Shown here one piece after another: positions 5,487 through 53,856 of a DNA stretch of 53,856 nt. This stretch comes from Anaerolineaceae bacterium (lineage in GTDB: Bacteria; Chloroflexota; Anaerolineae; Anaerolineales; Villigracilaceae), in NCBI GenBank assembly GCA_009885945.1, contig VFJR01000059.1, positions 1 to 53,856 of the forward strand, given 5' to 3'. The first letter of the stretch is position 1, and the number at the start of each line of letters is the position of its first letter. The notes below the pieces were generated by a model that ran no database searches, was not told the origin of the DNA, and was given only the letters and a program-made list of their open reading frames with translations. Both the position numbers and the translations under genes were made by a program.

Positions 5487-6467
5487 ATGAAAAAACTGAT
5501 TTCTAAAATTTTATTATTGTCCATCATCACAGGATGCTCAAGCAATCAGGTGGACGAAGCTGCATCTTCAAGATTAAGTACGCCAACTATTACACAACCC
5601 TATATACTTTCAGCCAATGAGAGTAAAAAGCTTGATCTTGGATCAACTCGTATATCACCCGTTGATGGAATGACTCAGGTTTTTATTGCGGGCGGCGAAT
5701 TTAAAATGGGGTCACAAATTGGATTAACAGATGAGCAACCGCAGCATAAAGTTATCCTTGATTCATTTTGGCTTGATAAAACAGAAATTACCAATGCTCT
5801 GTATAATAAATGTGTTCTCGCTGGGAAATGCAGACCGCCAAAAACACAAAACAGTTACGAGGATCAGAATACTCCTTTTGATTATTTCGAAAACTCAACA
5901 TTAATAAACCACCCGGTTGTTTTAGTTTCATGGAACGACGCAAAAAATTATTGTACATGGGCAGGCAAACGACTGCCCACTGAAGCAGAATGGGAGAAAG
6001 CCGCTATTTGGGATCCCACTTCAAATGAACAGCGCACATATCCTTGGGGAAACAACTTCGATTGCAAAAACGGAAATTACGATGATGAGATAGAACTAGA
6101 TGCATCTATGATGTCTAACACTACCAAAAATTGTGATGGATACTCACGAAGCTCCCCTGTTGGTAGTTTTCCTCAAGGCGCAAGCGCTTATGGCGCCTTA
6201 GATATGGGCGGGAACGTATGGGAATGGGTTAACGATGCGTTTATTGAAATTGACCCGTTTAACAATAAGGGTTTAAAAAAATATTATGAGATATCTCCGC
6301 TTCATAACCCGCCCGGAGTTGACCCTGCTATTAGTGAATATCGCATCTTACGCGGCGGCTCGTGGAATATGATTTTCGGCTTCGGGCGTGGAGCCTATCG
6401 GTTATGGTTTGGCTTGGATGATGCTTATGATGGCGTTGGTTTTCGCTGTGCCAGTAATATGAATTAA
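5487..6467 (+). CDS. SUMF1/FGE-fold lipoprotein, probably non-catalytic
   Basis: The start has a lipoprotein signal (MKKLISKILLLSIITGC, cysteine at 17), so the protein should be anchored to the membrane outside the cytoplasm. From about residue 65 it is a formylglycine-generating-enzyme/sulfatase-modifying-factor domain: GGEFKMGS, FWLDKTEITNALY, VSWNDAKNYCTWAGKRLPTE, GGNVWEWVND, RILRGGSWN, GVGFRCA. Genuine FGE has two catalytic cysteines just after the RGGS motif. Here that segment (RGGSWNMIFGFGRGAYR) has none, so sulfatase activation is unlikely. Many bacterial members of this fold bind ligands or carbohydrate, or accompany signalling proteins. No sulfatase gene is nearby. The true role is unknown. 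Confidence 0.85.
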   Translation: MKKLISKILLLSIITGCSSNQVDEAASSRLSTPTITQPYILSANESKKLDLGSTRISPVDGMTQVFIAGGEFKMGSQIGLTDEQPQHKVILDSFWLDKTEITNALYNKCVLAGKCRPPKTQNSYEDQNTPFDYFENSTLINHPVVLVSWNDAKNYCTWAGKRLPTEAEWEKAAIWDPTSNEQRTYPWGNNFDCKNGNYDDEIELDASMMSNTTKNCDGYSRSSPVGSFPQGASAYGALDMGGNVWEWVNDAFIEIDPFNNKGLKKYYEISPLHNPPGVDPAISEYRILRGGSWNMIFGFGRGAYRLWFGLDDAYDGVGFRCASNMN

Positions 6468-52385: not shown

Positions 52386-53363
52386 ATGGAAACTTTGTCG
52401 GTTGAAGAATTTAAGGAAATTGCAAAAAATATTGAAAGTGAAGTGGGGCATGTGATCGTTGGTCAGAATGAAGTTGTGCGTCACGCACTAGTAAGCATTT
52501 TGGCGGGCGGACATGTTTTATTGGAGGGCGTGCCAGGGCTTGGCAAGACGATGTTAATCCGCACTTTGGGGCAGGCGTTGGATTTGAAATTTTCGCGCAT
52601 TCAATTTACGCCTGATTTAATGCCCGCAGATATTTTGGGCACTGAAATTCTTTTGGATGAAAATGGAAAACGTGAGTTTCGTTTTCGTGAGGGTCCGCTT
52701 TTTTCAAATTTAGTATTGGCAGATGAAATCAATCGCGCCACACCCAAGACACAATCTGCTTTGTTAGAGGCGATGCAAGAAAGTTCTGTGACGGTGGCGC
52801 GAAAAACATACAAACTTGACGAACCTTTCTTTGTAATGGCAACTCAAAATCCGTTGGAGATGGAAGGTACATATCCCCTGCCTGAAGCGCAATTGGATCG
52901 TTTCTTTTTCAAAGTGAATGTGAATTTACCCAATGTCAGCGACTTGGCGGAAATTTTAGAACGCACAACGGGCAAAGAAATTACATCCGCAAACCGTGCG
53001 GCAACTGGCGGGCAAATTATAAAAATGCGCGAACTAGCGCGAACCGTGCCGATTGCATCTCATGTGAAAGAATATATTGCGGGATTAATTCTCGCCACAC
53101 ATCCAGATAATCCTACCGCTACACCGTTGGTTAATAAATACGTGCGCTATGGTTCCTCTCCGCGCGGCGGGCAGGCAATTGTGCTGGGTGCAAAAGTGAC
53201 GGCACTGTTAGCAGGCAGATACAATGTCTCCTTTGAAGATGTTCATACCGTTGCGCCCGCGGCTTTACGTCATCGTTTGTTGTTGAATTTTGACGGCTTG
53301 GCGGAGGGGATTAAGACAGATGATGTAATTGGGGAAGTGATAAGGATGAAGGGGAAGGGATGA
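52386..53363 (+). CDS. moxR: MoxR-family AAA+ ATPase
   Basis: This is a 325-residue AAA+ protein. Walker A GVPGLGKT is near residue 50, followed by RIQFTPDLMPADILGTEIL, LVLADEINRATPKTQSALL (Walker B and sensor 1 region), ATQNPLEMEGTYPLPEAQLD, and the C-terminal lid SPRGGQAIVLGAKVTALL. MoxR proteins act as chaperones for von Willebrand-factor proteins and DUF58 partners. GGAGG precedes the ATG. The usual downstream DUF58 and VWA genes are missing: a purine-rich tract and a restriction-gene fragment follow instead. Confidence 0.93.
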   Translation: METLSVEEFKEIAKNIESEVGHVIVGQNEVVRHALVSILAGGHVLLEGVPGLGKTMLIRTLGQALDLKFSRIQFTPDLMPADILGTEILLDENGKREFRFREGPLFSNLVLADEINRATPKTQSALLEAMQESSVTVARKTYKLDEPFFVMATQNPLEMEGTYPLPEAQLDRFFFKVNVNLPNVSDLAEILERTTGKEITSANRAATGGQIIKMRELARTVPIASHVKEYIAGLILATHPDNPTATPLVNKYVRYGSSPRGGQAIVLGAKVTALLAGRYNVSFEDVHTVAPAALRHRLLLNFDGLAEGIKTDDVIGEVIRMKGKG

Positions 53364-53477
53364 GGGATAAGGGAATAGAAGGTGGAAAGTAGAAAGTGGA
53401 AAGGTGAAAGAAGAAAGATGAAAGAGTGAAAGTAGAAAAAAAGAGAATGAATTAGAATGAAGGTTGTATTGTGAAGT
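53318..53477 (+). repeat. 160-nt cytosine-free purine-rich tract
   Basis: The plus strand has no C from 53318 to 53477, covering the last moxR codons and the intergenic region. It is dominated by GAAAG, GGAAAG and TGAAAG units. The 17-mer GGAAAGTAGAAAGTGGA at 53384-53400 also occurs exactly at 52360-52376, just before moxR. The rest of this intergenic region (53478-53525) holds only the ribosome site of the next frame. Confidence 0.8.
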
Positions 53478-53525: not shown

Positions 53526-53765
53526 ATGCCTGCTCCACAAAAAATCATACAGCTTGTAGAAATCTTTGAACAAAATATCAATGACTATCATAATAAGAAC
53601 GAAACAGAATTGCGTCGCCATTTCCTTGATCCTTTCTTTGAAGCATTGGGCTGGGATGTAAGCAACGCCAAAGGCAATGACGAACGCAGCAAGGAAGTAG
53701 CGCACGAACTTTCGGTAGAGATTGACGGTCAGCAGAAAAAAGCAGATTACGGAATGTGTCAATGA
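53526..53765 (+). pseudogene. Restriction-enzyme N-terminal fragment (HsdR_N-like), interrupted
   Basis: Seventy-nine codons are readable. The sequence matches the start of type I/IIG restriction enzymes or related HSDR_N proteins: LVEIFEQNINDYHNKNETEL, RRHFLDPFFEALGWDVSNA, VAHELSVEIDGQQKKADYG. In intact proteins this ADYG segment runs into the nuclease core. Here it stops three codons later in unrelated sequence (MCQ, then TGA). AGGA lies 7 nt upstream of the ATG. I read it as a gene broken by an insertion near 53750. Confidence 0.7.
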
Positions 53766-53856
53766 TTTGAGACACGAAATTCAAGAATTTAGTCACTCCA
53801 ACGGAGAGACTGTTTGTAGACAAAATTCAGGTAAAATTATCTCACCCCCAAACGAA
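53755..53856. mobile_element. Probable insertion-sequence end
   Basis: The restriction gene changes into unrelated sequence at about 53750. It begins with a short inverted motif GTGTC-AATGATTTGA-GACAC (53756-53775), which resembles terminal sequences of IS481-type elements. No transposase is readable in the roughly 100 nt before the window ends. The call rests on the break in the reading frame and the terminal motif, so the family is tentative. Confidence 0.45.

Follow-up and report, generated by a model that had tools for sequence, protein, structure and literature searches.

The window analysed here (53,856 nucleotides in total) is contig C144, one of the 209 contigs of a 3.43-Mb genome that is 95.7% complete with an estimated contamination of 0.68%. 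Close to its right edge lies an open reading frame (53526-53765) that encodes 79 amino acids and has both a start and a stop. Does this frame represent a small gene in its own right, or the remnant of a longer gene? A sequence-only reading had proposed the latter, i.e. a restriction gene that is cut by an insertion sequence at the window edge. The evidence described below makes us highly confident that a 1638-bp element of the IS3 family jumped into a single-polypeptide restriction-modification gene after codon 74 and left a 79-residue stub behind.

The interrupted restriction-modification gene

The 5' part of the frame (53526-53749, + strand) consists of 74 codons plus two bases and is 79-82% identical at the amino acid level to the N-terminus of two intact proteins of 975 and 1071 amino acids. 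The frame breaks between 53749 and 53750, i.e. between the Tyr and the Gly of 'ADYG', which is where the sequence-only reading had placed the end of the normal HsdR_N-like sequence. What follows (53750-53765, + strand) is derived from the insertion sequence: it provides the third base of the Tyr codon and is then translated as Gly-Met-Cys-Gln-stop. In other words, of the 79 residues the first 74 are specified by native codons, the next one (Tyr) by a hybrid codon and the last four (GMCQ) by the element. Against the HSDR_N profile (PF04313) the frame scores 21.7 bits, which is below the cut-off of 25.1, and the match is confined to residues 24-57. The insertion point falls within the Tyr-75 codon of '...KKADY', and in the close relatives 'VEAKKP' comes about 14 residues later; in terms of the PD-(D/E)xK nuclease pattern, the insertion would lie between the first acidic residue and E-x-K.

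The 75 residues translated from 53526-53750 were used as a query against a genome collection, which gave 373 related stretches; the best 80 were kept, and each frame was measured from the point where the match begins. In 49 of these 80 loci the frame continues for 876-1283 amino acids, in 17 it runs past the end of the available stretch and in the remaining 14 it ends before 850 amino acids (130-823), while a stop at 70-90 amino acids is found in none of the best 80 of the 373. The closest named homologues among the same 80 come from metagenome assemblies of Anaerolineales, so that the genome is probably a metagenome-assembled one from the Chloroflexota.

Two intact relatives, L039 (1071 amino acids) and L040 (975 amino acids), were searched for domains, and in both of them HSDR_N, Eco57I methylase, N6_Mtase/MmeI_Mtase and TaqI_C are found in a single chain. 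Judged by these profiles, nuclease, methylase and specificity functions would be united in one polypeptide as in Eco57I-like enzymes, and we take type IIG to be the appropriate label for such single-chain proteins; the copy in the window differs from them in that it holds the first 74 codons only. The methylase part of L040 also matches the BREX-1 PglX profile of NCBIfam, and one of its 10 PDB matches is a BrxX chain. The score of 120 bits is, however, far under the 500-bit cut-off, and L040 was not counted as a PglX protein. Since the nuclease domain is largely absent from the stub, and the methylase and specificity domains are wholly so, the gene is presumably dead as a restriction-modification enzyme.

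A search of the 209-contig assembly with two full-length homologues did not recover the continuation of the gene; it returned only the stub in the window and a different paralogue on contig C60. The latter has a frame of 1033 codons and matches L040 in pieces of 25, 39 and 45% identity and L039 in pieces of 27-55% identity, one of which spans a TAA. A genome-wide search with the HSDR_N profile gave the stub and two weak matches on C60, none of them above the cut-off.

The insertion sequence and its copies

The last 107 bases of the window (53750-53856, + strand) are the left end of a 1638-bp insertion sequence that belongs to the IS3 family and in the midst of which the contig stops. They are identical to positions 5582-5688 of locus L015, which lies on contig C75 and contains the single complete copy of the element in this genome (C75:30581-32218, i.e. 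L015 5582-7219). In the window copy the transposase frames would sit further in, on the - strand. The complete copy, read as the continuation beyond 53856, holds the transposase that the sequence-only reading had proposed to look for: its - strand carries OrfA (137 amino acids) and OrfB (371 amino acids). OrfB reaches 171 bits with the NCBIfam IS3 transposase profile NF033516 (cut-off 160) and matches Pfam rve (84 bits) and rve_3. A D...D-35 residues-E spacing can be read directly in its sequence, which we take to be the DDE transposase motif. OrfA matches HTH_Tnp_1 with 26.1 bits against a cut-off of 24.1. The two frames overlap at TTGATG in the -1 register, and the OrfB frame extends without a stop for 117 nt ahead of its first start codon, across an A8G run. 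IS3 elements use a programmed frameshift, and this arrangement would suit such a mechanism.

The terminal inverted repeat of the left end, CGGAATGTGTC...TGAGACAC (53750-53775, + strand), has its partner CCCTCTGTGAC...TGAGACAC at the opposite end in reverse complement. The repeat is imperfect (CGGAATGTGTCAATGATTTGAGACAC versus CCCTCTGTGACTATAATGATGAGACAC), the parts common to both ends being TGTG, C and TGAGACAC. The GTGTC...GACAC motif that had earlier been taken for a terminal-like sequence lies indeed inside these first 26 bp, with a matching sequence at the right end of the element.

The two overlapping frames, the helix-turn-helix of OrfA and its -1 overlap with OrfB, the rve core of an OrfB that scores above the IS3 cut-off and the imperfect terminal repeats are all shared with the IS3 family. 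Members of the family usually end in TG...CA; with the boundaries taken here as CGGAA...GAGGG, the ends of this element are 5 bp outside such a pair. A further difference is that OrfB continues for about 90 residues past the region that the NCBIfam profile covers (residues 10-279 of 371). The best ten plasmid matches of OrfB among those listed are 55.7-62.5% identical over 84-88% of the protein, and three of the ten are annotated as IS3 family transposase. Some match to the element was found in 26 of 152 genomes of the family (two candidates scored per genome), many of these matches being short. The nearest full-length relatives in this set are 85% (G151) and 75% (G022) identical; the G151 copy has matching CAG flanks, whereas the flanks of the G022 copy, TTG and ATT, do not match.

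Within the genome, six left ends (window, C75, C32, C4, C29 and C25) and seven right ends (C75, C77, C161, C101, C130, C5 and C64) were found. The repeat at 53750-53856 is identical over all 107 bases at the five other places, the C25 contig holding only 106 of them. The right ends have 0 mismatches even though 3 were allowed, and a reversed-pattern control gave 0 matches. Four of the five other left-end places reach the last or last-but-one base of their contig, and only C75 runs on. The window contig probably stops at the element because the assembler was unable to resolve a sequence of which the genome has several copies.

Target duplications in the IS3 family are 3-5 bp long. With the boundaries given above, five of the six left flanks end in the same three bases as a right flank: C75-C161 (TTC), C32-C64 (TAG), C4-C5 (CAA), C29-C75 (CTG) and C25-C101 (GAA), while none of the 42 possible pairs shares 4 to 7 bases. 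The chance of at least five matches is 2.5e-5, as estimated from 200,000 simulated draws of random 3-mers of the window. The 3-bp matches at the other copies represent target duplications, which is a further likeness to the IS3 family, as are the CAG flanks at one of the two relatives' copies. When C4-C5 and C25-C101 are joined in silico, the reading frame runs through the joint for 337 and 398 codons, lengths that no other of the 42 joins attains; among the unmatched joins the maximum is 261 codons. Values near 200 codons are common among unmatched joins, since certain flanks by themselves already stay open over about 190-200 codons. The three remaining matched pairs yield short frames (63, 76 and 126 codons) and do not test the duplication.

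The expected target-site duplication of the window copy is the TTA beside the element (53747-53749, + strand). It is the only left flank without a partner: none of the seven right ends in the genome starts with TTA, and the duplication of this particular copy is putative. The seven right ends were for this reason rejected as the site of the gene remainder. Two right flanks are also partnerless, namely that of C77 (GCA), which presumably belongs to an ECF sigma factor gene, and that of C130 (TTG), which carries an unrelated frame.

We note that the only complete copy, on C75, has flanks (TTC on the left, CTG on the right) that do not match each other and pair with C161 and C29, respectively, and that the glycosyltransferases lying right of the C75 copy have paralogues on C29 (45-53% identity). 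An assembly switch or a recombination between copies is likely at this place.

Alternative explanations

The reading of the 79-residue frame as a real small gene, with the repeat at its 3' side as a shared intergenic element, can draw on the start and stop that the frame possesses. It is refuted, and in our view retains next to no probability: none of the 80 homologous loci stops at 70-90 amino acids, the last four residues are encoded by the insertion sequence, and the 107-bp repeat forms one end of an element that carries a transposase. The sequence-only reading had named a missing transposase and a conserved 79-residue protein as observations that would speak against it, and the opposite was found on both counts.

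Two other explanations accept the insertion and differ in what became of the rest of the gene. The population may be mixed, with the element present in some cells only, so that the assembler joined the gene to the element and left the intact version unbinned. The bin lacks the right flank, right ends on C77 and C130 are without a left partner and a second moxR tail on C199 (89% identity) looks as if it came from a sister strain, all of which are consistent with such a mixture; the continuation of the gene, however, was found on no contig of the genome and the estimated contamination is low, and we regard this explanation as unlikely. Alternatively, recombination between copies after the insertion may have moved or deleted the remainder, in which case the right end would now lie beside unrelated DNA such as the C77 or C130 flank. 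The mismatched flanks of the C75 copy and the glycosyltransferase paralogues on C29 would fit events of this kind. Yet the C75 copy may have been misassembled at its joint, and a remainder absent from the bin is explained equally well by a deletion and by an unbinned contig; this course of events, too, seems improbable to us. The joint between gene and element could in principle also be an assembly switch at the insertion sequence, as may have happened in C75.

According to the explanation that we prefer, i.e. a simple insertion, a gene with an N-terminal HSDR_N-like nuclease domain, an Eco57I-type N6-adenine methylase and a TaqI_C specificity domain, as predicted from its relatives, would have been the target. 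A DDE transposase would have moved the element into it, and the remainder of the gene would lie beyond the missing right end. Against this explanation stand the failure to find the right junction and the remainder in the assembly, the three matched pairs of flanks that give no long frame on joining, and the unmatched flanks of G022, one of the two relatives' copies checked. The insertion had been called recent at the outset. The insertion itself stands, and the identical ends at several places suggest that the element was active recently, which gives no date; where contigs terminate in a collapsed repeat, the exact agreement of their ends is in part a product of the assembly, and only one copy is readable in full.

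The moxR neighbourhood and significance

The upstream neighbour of the stub is a gene for a moxR-type AAA+ ATPase (52386-53363, + strand; Pfam AAA_3 214.6 bits, AAA_lid_2 55.1 bits). It had been described as a truncated moxR neighbourhood, which is not borne out for the gene: it is complete with 325 amino acids and aligns with that of L176 over residues 1-325, and only the neighbourhood differs. A query of moxR plus the stub gave matches in 129 of the 152 family genomes (among the matches listed, two candidates scored per genome), and 24 moxR loci of relatives were compared with about 1.5 kb of flank each. The window moxR is 77-83% identical to these at the amino acid level. In 21 of these loci moxR is followed by DUF58, at a distance of 12-647 bp from where the moxR match ends, and the other three (L171, L174 and L179) have none within the roughly 1.5 kb examined. 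The usual DUF58 partner is also missing beside the window moxR. The spacer 3' of moxR (53363-53440) is purine-rich; among its matches listed, 13 fall at other places of the genome (25-56 bp, 79-96% identical).

The nearest DUF58 relative of the genome is on contig C199, with a further match on C145. The C199 locus (L145, 17324 down to 15646) carries a second moxR, of which the contig end has left only the final 70 codons, then a RelB/YafQ-type pair and then DUF58. The 89% identity of this moxR tail to the window gene is at the DNA level, and over 70 codons (stop included) there are 19 synonymous and 2 non-synonymous differences, which indicates that the C199 copy, too, has evolved as a working gene. 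C199 may be a contig of a sister strain; alternatively, moxR may occur twice in this genome, as part of a duplicated operon.

Among the matches listed, twelve other genomes match the restriction-modification part and none of them has a moxR match within 100 kb of it, so that the linkage of the two genes seems, within this list, to be specific to the genome studied here. The gap between moxR and DUF58 is 441-647 bp in L162, L163, L169, L173 and L176, and each of these gaps holds a small frame; the remaining 16 gaps that were measured span 12-278 bp. Four of the five frames encode 122-125 amino acids, which we assume to be four-helix-bundle-like, and the one in L162 encodes 158 amino acids with a Cys-rich end that is presumably SEC-C-like. 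It is a tentative and rather doubtful idea that small cargo has repeatedly landed in this gap in such Anaerolineales-like operons, perhaps by way of recombination that restores the 3' end of moxR. Equally speculative is the corresponding list of cargo, which would include the four-helix-type genes, the RelB/YafQ pair and, here, a restriction-modification gene that was later silenced by the insertion sequence.

A literature search found no paper that combines Anaerolineales, insertion sequences and restriction-modification. The interrupted gene could be annotated as a 79-amino-acid protein, and the contig edge at 53856 is an insertion sequence and no biological end. The insertion of such an element into a restriction-modification gene is an ordinary and common kind of event. 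The value of the present example is accordingly modest: it is a clean case of an insertion sequence that silences a restriction-modification gene and at the same time ends the contig.
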